Shown: positions 18,060 to 40,129 of the stretch, in pieces
How the letters are laid out: every line of letters starts with the position of its first letter
Position numbering within the stretch: position 1 is the first letter of the stretch
DNA from: an uncultured Prochlorococcus sp.
GTDB taxonomy: Bacteria > Cyanobacteriota > Cyanobacteriia > PCC-6307 > Cyanobiaceae
Reading direction: 5' to 3'
NCBI GenBank assembly: GCA_902616595.1
Contig: CACMTJ010000005.1
Coordinates: 1 to 64,000 of the forward strand
DNA: 64,000 nucleotides
Program-made: the position numbers and the translations under genes
Notes under the pieces: generated by a model
Seen by the model: the letters and a program-made list of their open reading frames with translations, nothing else
What the model was told of the DNA's origin: nothing
Database searches by the model: none

Positions 18060-18100
18060 AAAGGATCTAATTGCCCTTAATTTTAGATCGACTGTCAATC
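18060..18100 (-). repeat. Dispersed palindrome-plus-terminator element, copy 1
   Basis: Contains GATCGACTGTCAATC at 18086-18100 followed leftward by a weak GC hairpin with an AATTA loop and a T-rich end. Lies between the stop of the 40-residue gene (18103) and the start of the next leftward gene. Confidence 0.7.
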
Positions 18101-18102
18101 AA

Positions 18103-18225
18103 TTAATAATTAACTAATTTTCTCTTTCCATCTCTAGTTTCTACTTTATTTATTCTTAACCCAATAAACAGAGCCCATATAAGTGCAAAGACAATTGGTA
18201 AGAAAATGATCGCAAGTTTCATCAT
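18103..18225 (-). CDS. 40-residue single-helix membrane protein
   Basis: Starts MMKLAIIFLPIVFALIWALF, one membrane helix (about 3-23), then a basic tail INKVETRDGKRKLVNY. Size and layout resemble small photosynthetic-membrane subunits such as PsbY, but the similarity is too weak to name it. Two adjacent ATGs (18225 and 18222) are possible starts. Confidence 0.6.
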   Translation of the reverse strand: MMKLAIIFLPIVFALIWALFIGLRINKVETRDGKRKLVNY

Positions 18226-18361
18226 TTTTTAATCCTGTTATTTGCTCAAAATAATATCGTTTAAAAAAATAACTTAAAATAGGTACTTTACCTAAAATCT
18301 CATCATTTGATTTGGTAAGAAATTCTTGTATGGAAGATTTAAACCCAGATCTTTTTGGCAT
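18146..18361 (-). CDS. Possible 71-residue protein overlapping the 40-residue gene
   Basis: An open frame from ATG 18359-18361, starting MPKRSGFKSSIQEFLTKSND with a basic N-terminus, runs 71 codons. Its last third overlaps 18103-18225 in another frame. The first 45 codons look coding (no membrane segment, Lys/Ser/Phe-rich). Either this is a real gene with an overlapping end, or it is the head of a decayed gene. It lies 4 bases after the hydrolase stop. Confidence 0.35.
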   Translation of the reverse strand: MPKRSGFKSSIQEFLTKSNDEILGKVPILSYFFKRYYFEQITGLKNDETCDHFLTNCLCTYMGSVYWVKNK

Positions 18362-26468: not shown

Positions 26469-26613
26469 CAGTTTAAGAAATTAAGTTTCTTCTTTAAGTG
26501 CAAGATTAACAACCTTATCTTTATTTGCAATAGAGATAATTAACCAACTTAACTCAAATTAGTTATTCAATGTTCAGAAAGCTAAGAATTTAAGTATTAA
26601 AAACTTTCTAAAA

Positions 26614-26733
26614 TCAAGAAAAACTTTTGATTGAATTAGATGGAACTTCTACAGATACAAATGATTCTCCATAATGAGATTCGGCTGATCTTATCAGTAA
26701 CCAGTAAAAGAAATTTACTAAAGCTTTCTCCAC
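26614..26733 (-). CDS. 39-residue microprotein, MEK..N..YW family copy 2
   Basis: GTG start at 26731-26733. MEKALVNFFYWLLIRSAESH continues YGESFVSVEVPSN. Aligns from the first residue with the gene at 21597 (MEK, N, F/Y, YW, SAES.YG.S, EVP). The shared start at a GTG supports the call. Confidence 0.62.
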   Translation of the reverse strand: MEKALVNFFYWLLIRSAESHYGESFVSVEVPSNSIKSFS

Positions 26734-27078
26734 GAGGATTTAGTGACTAATTCAAATAAACTCATCATTTTTGTAATAGTAATATACAAAATAAATTTAT
26801 TAAACAATCAAGATATTTTTCTCATAAAGGATATATTTATATTATGAGATAAATTTGCACTCTCAGACTTTAGGCAGCGGACTAAATCCTCCTGGAGTAT
26901 TGGACTTTAGCCCGCACTATTTTTTTTAGCAAAAGAAAAATAGTTCTGCAAGGTAACTAGATCACCAATTACTCTATTTATTCTGAATAAGCATTGACGG
27001 GTTAATTGATCAACAATATCTGAACATATGTTGGGGTTGTTTATTGTATAGGAAGGCTACAAAAATTATGTTATATCA
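26734..27078. other. Intergenic region holding a candidate small RNA
   Basis: The only structured part is the hairpin and T-tract at 26877-26927, listed separately. Remainder is AT-rich with no coding signal. Confidence 0.5.
26850..26927 (+). ncRNA. Candidate small RNA with CCUCCU loop and terminator
   Basis: A -10-like TATATT at 26838-26843 precedes about 78 bases ending in a long hairpin: arms 26877-26889 (GCGGACTAAATCC) and 26902-26915 (GGACTTTAGCCCGC), followed by eight T. The apical region holds CCTCCTGGAG, exposing an anti-Shine-Dalgarno CCUCCU. No gene precedes it, so it is a free-standing transcript unit. Start is approximate. Confidence 0.5.
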
Positions 27079-27252: not shown

Positions 27253-27398
27253 TGGGATTCCCACATTGCCCCATTTGTGTAGTTCTAGCATTTGTTTCAA
27301 TTCTTATGGGAGTTACTCGTAGTTATATGTTCTATATTCTTGTTCGGGAGTTTATGAGTGCCGAATCTACTTTTAAATTGAAATTTAGTTTCTATTAA
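27252..27398 (+). CDS. 48-residue membrane microprotein
   Basis: MGFPHCPICVVLAFVSILMG: an N-terminal CPIC motif that begins a membrane helix, then GVTRSYMFYILVREFMSAES. Coupled to the preceding gene by TAATG. Just upstream of a consensus promoter at 27402-27430. Confidence 0.52.
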   Translation: MGFPHCPICVVLAFVSILMGVTRSYMFYILVREFMSAESTFKLKFSFY

Positions 27399-27401
27399 TT
27401 G

Positions 27402-27430
27402 TTGACATCTAAGTATAAATACTTTATAAA
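27402..27430 (+). promoter_or_regulatory. Consensus sigma-70 promoter for the riboswitch transcript
   Basis: TTGACA at 27402-27407, 17-base spacer, TATAAA at 27425-27430. The spacer contains the inverted repeat AAGTATAAATACTT (27411-27424). A GTA-N8-TAC sequence (27437-27450), matching the NtcA pattern but probably within the start of the transcript, follows. Confidence 0.7.
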
Positions 27431-27450
27431 TAGATTGTAGTGAATACTAC

Positions 27451-27527
27451 AAAATCGTCCGATCTACCATCTGATAGACCGCAGTACGACTCAAGCCATA
27501 GGACGGGGACTTGAGCAAGTTTAGGAG
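27451..27527 (+). promoter_or_regulatory. Candidate type II glutamine riboswitch (Downstream-peptide motif)
   Basis: CGTCC (27456-27460) pairs with GGACG (27501-27505), and CTCAAG (27490-27495) pairs with CTTGAG (27510-27515), an interleaved order that makes a pseudoknot. An inner TCTA/TAGA arm sits at about 27462-27478. A GGACGG core next to the 3' pseudoknot strand and a very short peptide gene right after it are the hallmarks of the marine cyanobacterial Downstream-peptide/glutamine aptamer class. The AGGAG ribosome site (27523-27527) lies 7 bases before the ATG, in reach of the 3' stem. Confidence 0.6.
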
Positions 27528-27534
27528 CTGCATC

Positions 27535-27636
27535 ATGGTAAACATGTATTTCAATGGAAAGTCATTCGTATATTGTAGAAAACAAGAAGAAAAGATTATA
27601 AAGCTTACTTATAGAGGGTCTATTTACTTAAAATAA
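27535..27636 (+). CDS. 33-residue peptide downstream of riboswitch (DUF4278-like)
   Basis: MVNMYFNGKSFVYCRKQEEK followed by IIKLTYRGSIYLK. The LTYRGxxY ending resembles short cyanobacterial DUF4278 proteins. Strong AGGAG site. In the Downstream-peptide riboswitch class the regulated gene is a peptide of this size; nitrogen-status control is inferred from that class. Confidence 0.65.
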   Translation: MVNMYFNGKSFVYCRKQEEKIIKLTYRGSIYLK

Positions 27637-27827
27637 GATTTTTAATTTCTTTTTAAAAAAATTTTGACATTTATTGACTTTTTAGAATTAAGTATTTATT
27701 AATACTTTATAAGAAGAACTTATAGTGAATATATTTTTTGCCTATTTAAAAATTCATATATTCGTATATTTAGTAACGAGAAATTAATTTTAAAATAATT
27801 AATTTGTAATTAGATTTTTATAAGGTT

Positions 27828-28034: not shown

Positions 28035-28124
28035 TTATTTTATAAAATACAAAAATAAACCAATAAAAGAACTTCCTACAAGTAGTAGCACCATTAAAAG
28101 AGCTATTAACTTTGCTAATCCCAT
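28035..28124 (-). CDS. 29-residue membrane microprotein
   Basis: MGLAKLIALLMVLLLVGSSF then IGLFLYFIK, almost entirely one membrane helix. Its ATG lies inside the last codons of the SnoaL-like gene (ATGGGATTAG), so translation is coupled. Confidence 0.5.
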   Translation of the reverse strand: MGLAKLIALLMVLLLVGSSFIGLFLYFIK

Positions 28125-28501
28125 AAAGATAAATCCGAATTTCCTGTAGATCTTTGCAACCAGTGGATTTTCCAAATATTATTTACTTTTTTAAAAATAG
28201 ATGTGACTGTTGGTAAGTCATCATTAGGTGTCCCTTTATAAGTAAATTTTGAACCTAGTGTAAAAATGCACATTACTATATTTTCGCTTAAAAATTCGAA
28301 TCGGTGAATTTTGGTTATTTCTGCCTTTTCTTGAACTATATCACCAGTAATCATTTGTTCGAAACCTTTTGCATCTATAGGATTACCACTCGGTCTTATG
28401 AATAAAAAATCTGGAGTCGCATTGTCAACAAAAAATGAGGCCATTTTTTTTGGATTGGCAAATTCATTTAATAATGAAATTATTGTTTCTTTATCATTCA
28501 T
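28115..28501 (-). CDS. SnoaL/NTF2-like protein (DUF3804 type)
   Basis: 128 residues. NTF2-like cone fold pattern: N-terminal helix (ETIISLLNEFANPKKMASFF), DFLFIRPSGNPIDAKGFEQM, then beta strands ending in IFKKVNNIWKIHWLQRSTG. Such domains bind small ligands or act as isomerases; no catalytic residues can be assigned. A diverged copy of the dispersed terminator element (28502-28540) lies just before its start. Confidence 0.65.
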   Translation of the reverse strand: MNDKETIISLLNEFANPKKMASFFVDNATPDFLFIRPSGNPIDAKGFEQMITGDIVQEKAEITKIHRFEFLSENIVMCIFTLGSKFTYKGTPNDDLPTVTSIFKKVNNIWKIHWLQRSTGNSDLSLWD

Positions 28502-33213: not shown

Positions 33214-33669
33214 AAATTTTATTTTGTTAAGTCTATTTTCTATCTAGCAAATAAATAAATCTTTGACATAAGTTGCTTATCTAAAGATTTTTTTTAATAG
33301 AACAAATAATTATCTTTGCGCTTGATATTTGCTTTTTTTAAAATTGAAAGAGCTTGCAAGTATCCCACTGGCAAGCTCATGACGACCTAGTTAATTCAGA
33401 TTTCTGATTCAACCAGCTAAGCACTTCCTAAATGCTGTAAATATTCTACTAAGTAAAATTACTTACTGTGAGTATAAATGCTTATTTATAATAATTGATT
33501 GCGAATTTGACGATAAAAAGTGATTCGTATAAAAAATGCGACCTGTTAATTTTTAAACAGAAATGTCACATATTGACCTATAGTAAATTTCTCAGGTGAA
33601 ATTATTAGAGATATTGGTTTACATAAGTTAATATTTATGTTAATTTAATTAACAATTATTATCTTTTTA
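33214..33669. other. Intergenic region upstream of hli with structured element
   Basis: 456 bases without a gene. It holds a GC-rich hairpin (33350-33378) and a candidate leftward small RNA, listed separately, plus a GAGTATAAATGCTT sequence near 33470 resembling the inverted repeat at 27411. The part nearest 33670 should contain the hli promoter. Confidence 0.45.
33340..33436 (-). ncRNA. Candidate leftward small RNA
   Basis: TAGAAT (-10-like) on the minus strand at 33443-33448. About 97 bases downstream there is an 8-pair hairpin GAGCTTGC/GCAAGCTC (33350-33357 with 33371-33378) running into TTTCAATTTT. GC content is clearly above its surroundings. No start-stop frame fits. The weak T-tract is the main doubt. 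Confidence 0.4.
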
Positions 33670-33876
33670 ATGACAAAATCAGGAGTTACTACAGAATCTG
33701 GCGGAAGGCAGAATATGTTCCCATCAGAAACTAGACCTTATATTGATGAAACTGTGTCTTACGATGGATATCCTCAAAATGCAGAAAAAGTAAACGGTAG
33801 ATGGGCTATGGTTGGCTTCGTTGCATTATTAGGTGCCTATGTAACAACTGGACAGATTATTCCAGGAATTTTTTAA
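33670..33876 (+). CDS. hli: High-light-inducible protein (HLIP), long form
   Basis: 68 residues. C-terminal half is the Lhc-like motif AEKVNGRWAMVGFVALLGAY (38-57) then VTTGQIIPGIF. The E..NGR..M sequence binds chlorophyll in the single membrane helix. HLIPs protect photosystems and bind free chlorophyll under light or nutrient stress. The polar N-terminal extension distinguishes it from the two short forms at 34.5 kb. Confidence 0.95.
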   Translation: MTKSGVTTESGGRQNMFPSETRPYIDETVSYDGYPQNAEKVNGRWAMVGFVALLGAYVTTGQIIPGIF

Positions 33877-34523: not shown

Positions 34524-34664
34524 TTAGATAAAACCAGGAATGATTTGACCTGTAGTTAAATATGCGCCAACTAGAGCAACAAAACCTAACATCGCGAATC
34601 TACCGTTAAGCTTTTCAGCAACGATTTTTTCTTTTTCAATTATTTTTGGCTCGTTATTTTTCAT
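34524..34664 (-). CDS. hli: High-light-inducible protein, short form
   Basis: 46 residues: MKNNEPKIIEKEKIVAEKLN, then GRFAMLGFVALVGAYLTTGQ and IIPGFI. Chlorophyll-binding E..NGR..M motif intact. Start ATG shares one base with the stop of the upstream hli (TAATG), so translation is coupled. Longer frames through this start are not the real protein. Confidence 0.93.
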   Translation of the reverse strand: MKNNEPKIIEKEKIVAEKLNGRFAMLGFVALVGAYLTTGQIIPGFI

Positions 34665-34771
34665 TAGAACCAACCTGGAATGATCTGGCCTGTTGTGACA
34701 TATGCACCAACGGCTGCAACGAAACCTAACATTGCTGCCCAACCATTAAAACGTTCTGCTTCTGGAGTCAT
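34664..34771 (-). CDS. hli: High-light-inducible protein, 35-residue form with NGWAAM
   Basis: MTPEAERFNGWAAMLGFVAA then VGAYVTTGQIIPGWF. In the helix motif the usual Arg after NG is replaced by Trp (E-RFNGWAAM), which may change chlorophyll ligation. One of the shortest HLIPs. First gene of the coupled pair. Confidence 0.9.
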   Translation of the reverse strand: MTPEAERFNGWAAMLGFVAAVGAYVTTGQIIPGWF

Positions 34772-36289: not shown

Positions 36290-37468
36290 TTATTGTGTTT
36301 TTAATCCATCTTTTTTGTATGAAGATTGCCATATATATCTTCCTCTCTTGATGTCAGACTCAACAGCAACGCAATTGCAAGCAATATTCCATAAAGCTTT
36401 GTGTATTGGATCAGGATTAAAAAGATATGCTTTTTTAAAGGCTTTTTTAATTAAGACAGTTGCCTTTTTTGCATGATAATGAGGGATCGTTGGACATACA
36501 TGATGAACGACATGGCTAGAACCTATATTATGGTGAAGAAAATTAAGGACTCTACCGTAAGGCCTGTCAATAGATAGAAATGCTCCTCTCATAAAGGAAA
36601 ATTCCGTATTTGAAAGATGAGGCACATCTGAATCTGTATGATGAAGCCATGTATAAACTACTAACCAACAATTAACAACTAATAAAGGGCCAAAATACAG
36701 AGTAATTACTGGAAATAATCCATACTTGAAAACTAAATAAACAATGCCCACTAATGTCAAACCTACTCCAATATCTGATATCCAAACTTTCTTGGCCCAT
36801 ACTGATGGCCATAATGCTTTAGAAAATGGTTTAATTGGCCAAAAATGATTTGAAGTGCCATATTTAACACCTCCTGTACTTCCAGTAAGTAAATAAGCAG
36901 GCCAGCCAAATATTAGATGTAAAACAAGTTGTAGAATTCCATAATTTTTCTTACCTAAGGAATTTGAAAAATGTAATTCTTTTTCTCCACCAACTTTTTC
37001 TGTAACTCCATTCCCTTTAATAACTAAAGGGACGTGAGTTTCTCCATTAGTTATGTTATTTGTGAATCGATGATGAACTGCATGAGAACGCTGCCAAGAA
37101 AAATAAGGCACCAGAAGTAATGAATGTAGTAAATAACCAGTTACAGATTCCAATGTTTTGTTTTTAGAGAATGCTCCATGCCCACATTCATGGGCAATTA
37201 CCCAGAATCCCATTGCAGTGGTACCTGATATTAATGCGTAAATTATCCAAATTGGGATCATTTTTGGGTTAAATGGAATAGATAACCCTATTGCAACTAC
37301 TAATGATTGAATGAAAGCTGATTGAAAAAGATACCTCAAAGAAGTTTTGGTATTGCACTTAAAGTAGTTATCTGGGATAACATCCTGAAATTCTTTTATG
37401 CTTGGAATATCTTTATCCTTTATTACAAGCGCTTGGCCTTTAAGACCAGAAAAGTTTATATTACTCAA
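36290..37468 (-). CDS. Membrane fatty-acid desaturase (delta-12/omega-3 type)
   Basis: 392 residues. Three histidine boxes that hold the di-iron centre: HECGH (93-97), HAVHH (129-133) and HVVHH (319-323), with paired membrane helices around them. Closest in layout to cyanobacterial DesA/DesB acyl-lipid desaturases that add double bases to thylakoid lipids, using ferredoxin. Position of desaturation cannot be read from sequence alone. The start ATG is followed by a soluble 30-residue N-terminus. Confidence 0.88.
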   Translation of the reverse strand: MSNINFSGLKGQALVIKDKDIPSIKEFQDVIPDNYFKCNTKTSLRYLFQSAFIQSLVVAIGLSIPFNPKMIPIWIIYALISGTTAMGFWVIAHECGHGAFSKNKTLESVTGYLLHSLLLVPYFSWQRSHAVHHRFTNNITNGETHVPLVIKGNGVTEKVGGEKELHFSNSLGKKNYGILQLVLHLIFGWPAYLLTGSTGGVKYGTSNHFWPIKPFSKALWPSVWAKKVWISDIGVGLTLVGIVYLVFKYGLFPVITLYFGPLLVVNCWLVVYTWLHHTDSDVPHLSNTEFSFMRGAFLSIDRPYGRVLNFLHHNIGSSHVVHHVCPTIPHYHAKKATVLIKKAFKKAYLFNPDPIHKALWNIACNCVAVESDIKRGRYIWQSSYKKDGLKTQ

Positions 37469-39022: not shown

Positions 39023-40129
39023 TTAATTTATTGGAATTAATTTTTCATTTTTATTATCCCAAATAATATATTTGAAGCAGTTTGAAAAATCGCTTAATTT
39101 TAAGAACTTTGATTGTTGGAGTAAATGAATGTTTGCTTTATGACAAGCTCTTAAGTTGTAATTTGGTATTCTCTCAGAGAGATGGTGAATGCTGTGGAAG
39201 GATATGTCTGCTAAAAACCAATTTAACCAATTAGGGATATCTAAATTGCTACTACCTAAAATAGCTCCATCGATGAGATCCCAATTTTTTGTATTTTTAG
39301 CATATGCATTTTCGTAGTTATGTTGTACAAAAAAAACACATATTAAAATTGCTGCTGATAAGGTTAATATAATGGAATAAAACGATAAGAAAAAAACTAC
39401 CCCCAACCACTTACACATAAAAATCCACCCTATTATTACTACTATGTTATTGATTATTAATTCACATAGTTCACTAAAATTATCTCCATAATCAGAAAAA
39501 GGTGGTTTCACTCTTGAATTAATAACTAATAGTTGAGAAATATCTCTGTTTTTTATTTTGATAAAAGTCTCTTCCAATATATCTTTAATGAAATTAAAAA
39601 TTATAATGACTAGTCCTAATCTAGGCTTTAAAACTAAGTAAAAAAAACCGCCAGGGAATAGCATCATCCAGTTTCGACTTACTTTATAAAATATTTGCTC
39701 TCTTTTTGTAAGAGATTCATAGTCTTCAAGACTTAAAACATCTATCGGCCCTTTGTAAATTTCCCAATTTCCGTTATTTCTATGATGAAATGCATGATCA
39801 ATTGACCATGACTTCTGGGGAATACCATTAACCAAGCCAAGTAAAAATCCAAAAAAGCGGTTTAATTTCTGTTTTGTAAAAAGAGAATTATGACCGCAAT
39901 CATGCATTAATGAGAATGTTCGAGAAGAGAACAGAGTTAGAAGAATTATAAAAGGCACTAATAGGAATGCTTTAATCAATAATGAAAAAGGTTGAATTAT
40001 TATTTGGTGGACAATTAACCAGATAAAAATTATTGGGAGGATGGTAGAAATAATTTGATAACAAGCTCTAATATTATTTCTTTTTAAAAATGGCTTTATT
40101 AAAAAATCTCTTCTATTTACTTTTAGCAT
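39023..40129 (-). CDS. Second membrane fatty-acid desaturase
   Basis: 368 residues with His boxes HDCGH (76-80), HAFHH (112-116) and HSIHH (312-316), and two pairs of membrane helices. Box spacing matches acyl-lipid desaturases, and the sequence differs clearly from the enzyme at 36290, so a different positional specificity or substrate is likely. Might also be a carotenoid-type di-iron oxygenase of the same superfamily. Confidence 0.85.
   Translation of the reverse strand: MLKVNRRDFLIKPFLKRNNIRACYQIISTILPIIFIWLIVHQIIIQPFSLLIKAFLLVPFIILLTLFSSRTFSLMHDCGHNSLFTKQKLNRFFGFLLGLVNGIPQKSWSIDHAFHHRNNGNWEIYKGPIDVLSLEDYESLTKREQIFYKVSRNWMMLFPGGFFYLVLKPRLGLVIIIFNFIKDILEETFIKIKNRDISQLLVINSRVKPPFSDYGDNFSELCELIINNIVVIIGWIFMCKWLGVVFFLSFYSIILTLSAAILICVFFVQHNYENAYAKNTKNWDLIDGAILGSSNLDIPNWLNWFLADISFHSIHHLSERIPNYNLRACHKANIHLLQQSKFLKLSDFSNCFKYIIWDNKNEKLIPIN

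Follow-up and report, generated by a model that had tools for sequence, protein, structure and literature searches.

A conserved Glutamine-II riboswitch cassette and its YRG-type microprotein in Prochlorococcus

What does a riboswitch control when the ORF behind it has 33 codons? We addressed this question for a cassette on a contig of an uncultured Prochlorococcus sp., using the whole 64,000-nt stretch of DNA that was analyzed (the window) together with homologous loci. A first-pass annotation had described a promoter, the interleaved pairings CGTCC/GGACG and CTCAAG/CTTGAG, an AGGAG ribosome site and a 33-codon gene ending in LTYRGSIYLK, and had proposed nitrogen-status control of a peptide regulator. 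All of the named elements are present where they had been placed (Table 1). The interpretation is right in kind; nitrogen-status control of a peptide regulator is probable by analogy with relatives, for which glutamine binding and ON behavior have been published. To it we add an NtcA-type box and a paralogous peptide family. The kind of riboswitch is already known: the class, its ligand, its ON behavior and the connection with small DUF4278 proteins have all been published (PMC2864571, PMC6316151, PMC6698751). The class of peptide encoded here was named in no paper found in the open-licence literature that we searched.

Table 1. Features of the cassette, in window coordinates
Feature	Positions	Strand	Basis
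Promoter: -35 TTGACA (27402-27407), 17-nt spacer, -10 TATAAA (27425-27430)	27402-27430	+	sequence and conservation
NtcA-type operator (candidate) GTAGTGAATACTAC, of the form GTAN8TAC; first G is the presumed +1	27437-27450	+	conserved in leaders
Glutamine-II riboswitch aptamer (RF01704)	27453-27515	+	58.4 bits; covariation
Pseudoknot 5′ strand CGTCC; partner GGACG at 27501-27505	27456-27460	+	pairs standard in 97-100 of 100 distinct aptamers
P1 hairpin, TCTA (27463-27466) with TAGA (27475-27478)	27462-27479	+	double changes in 5 of 5 aligned pairs
P2, CTCAAG (27490-27495) with CTTGAG (27510-27515); loop contains the 3′ strand of the pseudoknot (27501-27505)	27490-27515	+	double changes in 6 of 8 pairs
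Shine-Dalgarno AGGAG (27523-27527) and conserved spacer CTGCATC; possible expression platform	27523-27534	+	conservation
33-aa microprotein MVNMYFNGKSFVYCRKQEEKIIKLTYRGSIYLK, diverged relative of YRG/DUF4278 proteins; ATG at 27535, TAA at 27634-27636	27535-27636	+	homologs; pN/pS

Across 121 distinct sequences, mean column conservation is 0.955 in the promoter, 0.904 in the NtcA-type box, 0.979 in the aptamer, 0.940 in the linker and 0.932 in the coding region, and 0.730 after the stop codon. A simple promoter scan of the region did not list this promoter (3 regional hits, with a shuffle mean of 2.7) because the scanner demands T at position 6 of the -10 element. Support for the putative promoter comes from conservation of TTGACA, which occurs in 93 of the 96 distinct homologous leaders of the window type (class C, see below).

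A Glutamine-II aptamer with a covarying pseudoknot

The Rfam scan of the whole window matched the aptamer to RF01704 (Glutamine-II/Downstream-peptide, type 2) well above the gathering threshold of 33 bits (E 1.5e-11), and a permissive scan of the 281-nt stretch 27380-27660 gave E 6.5e-14. This was the sole above-threshold match at the cassette, so the Downstream-peptide class suggested earlier passed the covariance check proposed for it. The glnA model named in the same check fell away: the type 1 glutamine riboswitch (RF01739) had no match on 27380-27660, even at E up to 1. We also rejected a cyano-S1 leader, the sole extra match in the permissive scan, which overlaps the aptamer at 21.2 bits, below its threshold of 39.9. 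With known Glutamine-II RNAs the window copy shares the covariance score, P1, P2, the pseudoknot, the CGCA and ACGGG core, and the placement before a short ORF in marine picocyanobacteria. It differs in the pseudoknot itself: through a compensated double change, the usual CGUUC/GAACG is CGUCC/GGACG here.

No pseudoknot pairs are marked in the structure line that Rfam gives for the match, and the pseudoknot is therefore an independent test. As the pattern-based aptamer search demands a perfect pseudoknot, covariation was counted on sets picked otherwise, here 38 diverse aptamers drawn from covariance matches (680 cells, 18 pairs, 500 shuffles). P1, P2 and the pseudoknot all covary, which bears out the interleaved pairing. 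Standard pairs fill 93.1% of cells (79.1% in shuffles), 96 cells carry double changes (24.5 in shuffles) and the covariation score is 0.434 (0.195 in shuffles); none of the 500 shuffles reached either of the last two values. Double-sided changes occur in 12 of the 18 pairs, compared with 9.4 in shuffles; 12 of the 500 shuffles were as high. When partners were slid by 1-3 columns, pairing fell to 25-51%. Pseudoknot cells are 97.9% paired and one of the five pseudoknot pairs changed on both sides, with the counts for P1 and P2 given in Table 1. The outermost P1 pair (27462/27479) is unpaired in the window copy and in 18 of the 38 sequences in all.

We examined pair 27459/27502 in 100 distinct aptamers, having set aside 4 loci whose strand was ambiguous and those whose length was irregular: it is U-A in 52, U-G in 1 and C-G in 47. 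The C-G pairs are exactly those of the 47 distinct class C aptamers (as 63-mers excised at a constant offset from the ATG, three of these were off by one base until they were aligned), and the other 53 are U-A or U-G. Because the C-G set coincides with class C, this is about one compensated event and not many. The aptamer match and its pairing are not due to chance. Glutamine is the probable ligand of this copy by analogy with its relatives, as L-glutamine binding has been published for RF01704 (PMC6698751).

A real microprotein and its paralogs

The ORF starts 19 nt past the aptamer. A longer ORF from TTG 27511 was rejected: it would begin within P2, and the codons it adds would occupy P2 and the linker, which is variable in part. 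A pattern search on the N-terminal part of the peptide, which is thus conserved by construction in this set, recovered 171 stretches (some being the same locus in two collections) with 61 distinct peptides, 168 of the stretches having exactly 33 codons. Among 101 distinct coding sequences (2000 random pairs), pN/pS is 0.166 in frame, and the same computation gave 2.35 and 1.11 after shifting the frame. Restricted to codons 12-33, which the search pattern does not touch, pN/pS is 0.267. Residues Y13, C14, Y26, R27, G28 and Y31 are invariant in these 101 sequences. The 33-codon gene claimed in the first-pass annotation thus encodes a real, conserved protein under purifying selection (pN/pS 0.17 against 2.3 and 1.1 in shifted frames). 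Variants at these residues do occur among other copies: a further class C copy (L262) has M for R27, giving YMG in place of YRG, and a copy from another genus (L311) has F for C14.

These values bear on the first proposal for the related transcript Yfr6, under which the RNA would be mainly regulatory and the ORF incidental. In published work Yfr6 is an ncRNA that may contain a 33-aa frame and that, with the antisense Yfr14, is a candidate toxin-antitoxin pair (PMC1242208, PMC2518516). For the window-type cassette we consider such a role highly improbable given the in-frame pN/pS, the constant length of 33 codons, the fall in column conservation past the stop codon (0.93 to 0.73), and second copies in two genomes whose alignment ends at the stop codon (see below).

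To place the peptide, we sorted riboswitch copies by the ORF behind them into classes A-E; 4 of 138 loci had no match. Class A comprises Yfr6-type peptides of 33-35 aa with two YRG or YRG-like motifs (MTLIYRGQKYVQNKEAAKKQHNELTYRGKAYTS). Class B is a longer form, mostly 55-58 aa, with a YRG, a middle YR motif and another YRG; nine class B genes have an assigned start codon too far upstream (length 65), and the linker energy test described below used the later ATG. Class C is the window type, class D is MNNLVQIREK-like, and class E is a membrane protein with a repeated TLW motif. Class A probably corresponds to the published Yfr6 peptide, judging from length, leader and YRG motif and not from the published sequence.

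Pfam found no family for the window peptide, which does not reach the gathering cut-off of DUF4278 (PF14105). The DUF4278 model recognizes the one class A peptide tested (33.1 bits) and both class B peptides tested (42.9 and 38.8 bits). All 22 DUF4278 matches (E ≤ 0.01, 11 genomes; one below the Pfam cut-off) lie directly behind a Glutamine-II hit. Measured against a requirement for at least two YRGxxY motifs, the motif being derived from classes A and B, the window peptide falls short: it has one YRGxxY, and FNGKSF stands in place of the other. For class C as a set, the FNGKSF half was dictated by the pattern used in the search. BLAST of class C against class A 33-mers aligned FNGKSFV to YRGQKYV (E 0.001), and in profile-profile comparison the C-terminal YRG of class C aligned with the first YRG of class A (probability 84.6%, E 6.8e-6). 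On these alignments, the window peptide is a diverged relative (a paralog) of the DUF4278/Yfr6 YRG microproteins that gained a conserved cysteine. AlphaFold predicted strands at residues 2-6, 9-13, 24-26 and 29-31 (mean pLDDT 74, pTM 0.20), that is, at modest confidence, two hairpins with turns at N7-G8 and R27-G28. The class B prediction has two hairpins and a helix (pLDDT 69, pTM 0.22). Neither prediction is strong enough for comparison with known folds.

Compared with Yfr6-type class A, the window peptide shares the length of 33 residues, the C-terminal LTYRGxxY, the riboswitch and NtcA-type box, and nearly equal spacing. It differs in having FNGKSF in place of the N-terminal YRGxxY, an added VYC, a one-residue register shift and a different genomic place, and DUF4278 sees class A and not the window peptide. 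With the class B DUF4278 proteins, such as PMM1846 of MED4 and the N-terminus of IF17/GifB (PMM1846 and IF17 as described in PMC6316151), it has in common the YRG, the Glutamine-II leader and the NtcA-type box, whereas it is about half as long, has a single canonical YRG and matches no Pfam family. Riboswitch-controlled YRG microproteins thus fall into several paralogous lines, of which one escapes the Pfam model.

At L076, L079 and L080, Glutamine-II precedes a predicted membrane protein with repeated TLW(S/A)(A/P)LG; both distinct leaders have an NtcA-type box, and the one protein tested has no Pfam family. At L086, L087 and L088, a Glutamine-II variant with a CGCAUGA core precedes MNNLVQIREK-like proteins, and none of the three has a GTAN8TAC box.

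A phage or other viral origin of the cassette was considered and rejected: IMG/VR held no exact match to the N-terminal DNA pattern, and annotated phages had no match by DNA, by Yfr6-type peptide or by the window peptide.

An NtcA-type box and a candidate nitrogen-excess switch

Of the 96 distinct class C leaders, 94 contain GTAN8TAC, which we take to be the NtcA consensus; in 87 the box begins 98 nt ahead of the ATG. Within 60 nt upstream of the pseudoknot strand, the box occurs in 46/50 distinct leaders of class A, 20/22 of B, 35/37 of C, 2/2 of E, 0/3 of D and 1/1 for the unclassified copy, altogether in 104 of 115, counted on aptamers from the pattern search that demands a perfect pseudoknot. 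The gap is 3-7 nt, and for the lettered classes 1.3-2.3% of shuffled upstream sequences have such a box. Among class C leaders from other genera, it is present in 11 of the 16 evaluated and missing in 5 (L296, with a misplaced start, was left out). GTA and TAC are invariant or nearly so and the center is variable, the pattern expected of a protein site. An NtcA motif has been stated for the promoter region of the riboswitch gene PMM1846 (PMC6316151), so that at least one precedent exists for coupling riboswitch and NtcA; the count over all classes comes from the present analysis.

The position of the box hints at its sign. The mapped Yfr6 transcript begins with a G and has its frame at nt 97 (PMC1242208). 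Counting from the first G of GTA as +1 puts the frame at exactly nt 97 in class A leaders whose ATG lies 28 nt past the pseudoknot. The corresponding start in the window would be G27437, 7 nt past TATAAA. The box would then span +1 to +14, which suggests repression by NtcA at this candidate site.

The explanation that we favor, and hold to be quite probable as a whole, is that the cassette is a two-lock device for nitrogen excess, whose YRG microprotein restrains a nitrogen-assimilation protein. The first lock would act on transcription: NtcA, active at high 2-oxoglutarate and hence at nitrogen shortage, would block the promoter through the box. The second would act on translation through the leader folded as a Glutamine-II aptamer. 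Without glutamine, the pseudoknot would be unstable and an alternative fold would hide the ribosome site; with glutamine, the pseudoknot would form, the ribosome site would be free and the 33-aa protein would be made. Repression by NtcA at nitrogen shortage combined with translation switched on by glutamine would mean that the protein is made at nitrogen excess. The product, a YRG-type microprotein and Yfr6/DUF4278 paralog predicted to form two short beta-hairpins, probably binds and restrains a nitrogen-assimilation protein, like IF7, IF17 and PirA. These proteins inhibit via PII/NAGK or glutamine synthetase and share with the cassette the logic of a small protein at nitrogen excess (PMC8092223, PMC6316151); the likeness drawn is one of regulatory logic, and the inhibitory role suggested for the window peptide is drawn from it. 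Marine picocyanobacteria are reported to lack both PirA and the inactivating factors (PMC8092223), and a section heading (2.7) of a review calls the regulation of Prochlorococcus glutamine synthetase unclear (PMC6316151).

The switch might have the opposite sign, with the glutamine-stabilized pseudoknot beside the ribosome site blocking the ribosome. Only 7 nt separate P2 from AGGAG, and in pseudoknot-free predictions GGA is mostly unpaired both in the free RNA (84-98%) and with P1 and P2 forced (89-97%), so it is not evident that the free state hides the site. We nevertheless regard an OFF switch as improbable, as a Prochlorococcus DP aptamer is reported to activate expression on glutamine binding (PMC6316151). 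Moreover, Yfr6 RNA is reported to fall on nitrogen depletion, its signal being called inconstant (PMC1242208), and a fall is what an ON switch with NtcA repression predicts. The ON sign that we favor for the window copy is thus carried over from published relatives.

For the class, a published proposal sets the ligand-stabilized pseudoknot in competition with a fold that occludes the ribosome site (PMC6698751). We looked for a counterpart in the distinct class C leaders, where GGA occurs in all 96, GGAG in 88, and CTGC (92), CTGT (3) or TTGC (1) in all 96. Conservation extends over the whole spacer CTGCATC and is not confined to CTGC, which speaks against the pairing described next. The folding model, which holds no pseudoknot and leaves J1/2 free, predicted pairing of the aptamer-core GCAG(U) with the (G)CUGC between the Shine-Dalgarno and the ATG, with a probability of about 0.9 in the window and above 0.5 in 68 of the 96 leaders. 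The CUGC spacer was paired both in the free RNA and with P1 and P2 forced, and the model showed no hidden Shine-Dalgarno, so that the hiding step is conjectural for this leader. Of 62 class C leaders, just one had a CGCAG:CUGC pairing better than that of shuffled linkers at p < 0.05. In other genera, 6 of the 16 class C leaders have neither CUGC nor CUGU. We rejected a general platform based on pairing of the linker with J1/2 and P2, as in no class did the linkers beat their shuffles (median p 0.16-0.30). Class C linkers paired better with class B aptamers than with their own. Given both results, a platform is kept as a possibility for class C only; CGCAG:CUGC is a possible lead to which the folding model gives no clear support.

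The microprotein might bind something other than glutamine synthetase, such as PII, a transporter, nitrate/nitrite reduction or the ribosome, and we put the chance of this at about even. PirA and NirP1 are cyanobacterial nitrogen-related small proteins with varied targets (PMC8092223, PMC10907346), and the FNGKSF/VYC half that sets class C apart suggests a partner of its own. The present results do not discriminate among targets, and another partner is compatible with control by NtcA and glutamine as set out above.

Distribution and duplication of the cassette

Within the genus, 189 of 266 genomes have a match to the peptide (E ≤ 0.01), as do 71 of the 87 that are ≥90% complete; a few of the matches are weak. 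It is absent from 77 of the 266, including 16 of the 87 near-complete genomes, and the protein is therefore dispensable. In the family, 81 of 400 genomes have a match (E ≤ 0.01), some weak, and these genomes belong to 3 of 59 genera. The riboswitch itself occurs in 284 of the 400 family genomes and 260 of the 266 genus genomes. The genome that contains the window (1.29 Mb, 39 contigs, 82% complete) has three copies of Glutamine-II. The N-terminal DNA pattern was found in at least 117 stretches; with one exception, the 80 listed are titled Prochlorococcus or uncultured Synechococcaceae.

Peptide and aptamer travel together. The aptamer pattern lies directly upstream of the peptide in 170 of the 171 stretches, and in the remaining one the contig ends 35 nt upstream, with the 3′ half of the aptamer still visible. 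In a threshold check among relatives, RF01704 was above threshold in all 20 stretches chosen from the family-wide peptide matches (19 from the genera g56 and g4 and one from the own genus; 17 are class C, one is class B and two have no recognizable ORF). Three of these 20 aptamers score low (33.5, 34.8 and 40.4 bits), which looks like decay. The low-scoring copies are L302, where the peptide is altered, and L308 and L315, where no ORF passed the filter; they are apparently decaying copies.

A record labeled as a Crocinitomicaceae MAG (L164, 6300-6800) carries an intact class C cassette. We did not count it as a transfer to Crocinitomicaceae, because it is probably a misbinned Prochlorococcus contig.

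In five genomes (G001, G003, G012, G043 and G044) the window aligns over blocks of 2.8-7.9 kb that contain the cassette, and in G027 over one of 2.1 kb. Two of these genomes have another class C copy, which has diverged; it lies about 9 kb away in G027 and about 16 kb away in G003. These second copies align with window positions 27395-27636 (pieces ≥80 nt), and as the aligned part runs from promoter to stop codon, the unit has duplicated. The second cassettes are at 4036-4277 of L256 and 3541-3782 of L260. Separate pieces of the window lie near them: 26588-26951 about 300 nt beyond the copy in G027, and 18097-18297 beside that in G003.

A bolder reading, which we offer tentatively and think unlikely as a whole, is that the FNGKSF-VYC-YRG peptides form a distinct nitrogen-excess family with its own target. 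It would have been born by duplication of a ~240-bp unit of promoter, NtcA box, riboswitch and microprotein that is still multiplying and decaying in Prochlorococcus. The cysteine may add redox or metal control, and the CUGC near the Shine-Dalgarno may be a class-specific platform that competes for the CGCAG core.

The cassette is conserved, apparently contains both nitrogen sensors and, at ~240 bp, is small enough to synthesize or delete, which makes its product a direct candidate for tests of nitrogen regulation in Prochlorococcus.

Elsewhere in the window, a DUF3804 protein (187 bits) is encoded downstream of the cassette at 28115-28501 on the minus strand. The cyanobacterial RNA Yfr20 (78.3 bits) was identified at 33351-33437, also on the minus strand, near two small ORFs at 33670-33876 and 34524-34742 that look hli-like by eye. 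Two fatty-acid-desaturase-like ORFs, with His-box motifs seen by eye, occupy 36290-37468 and 39023-40129.
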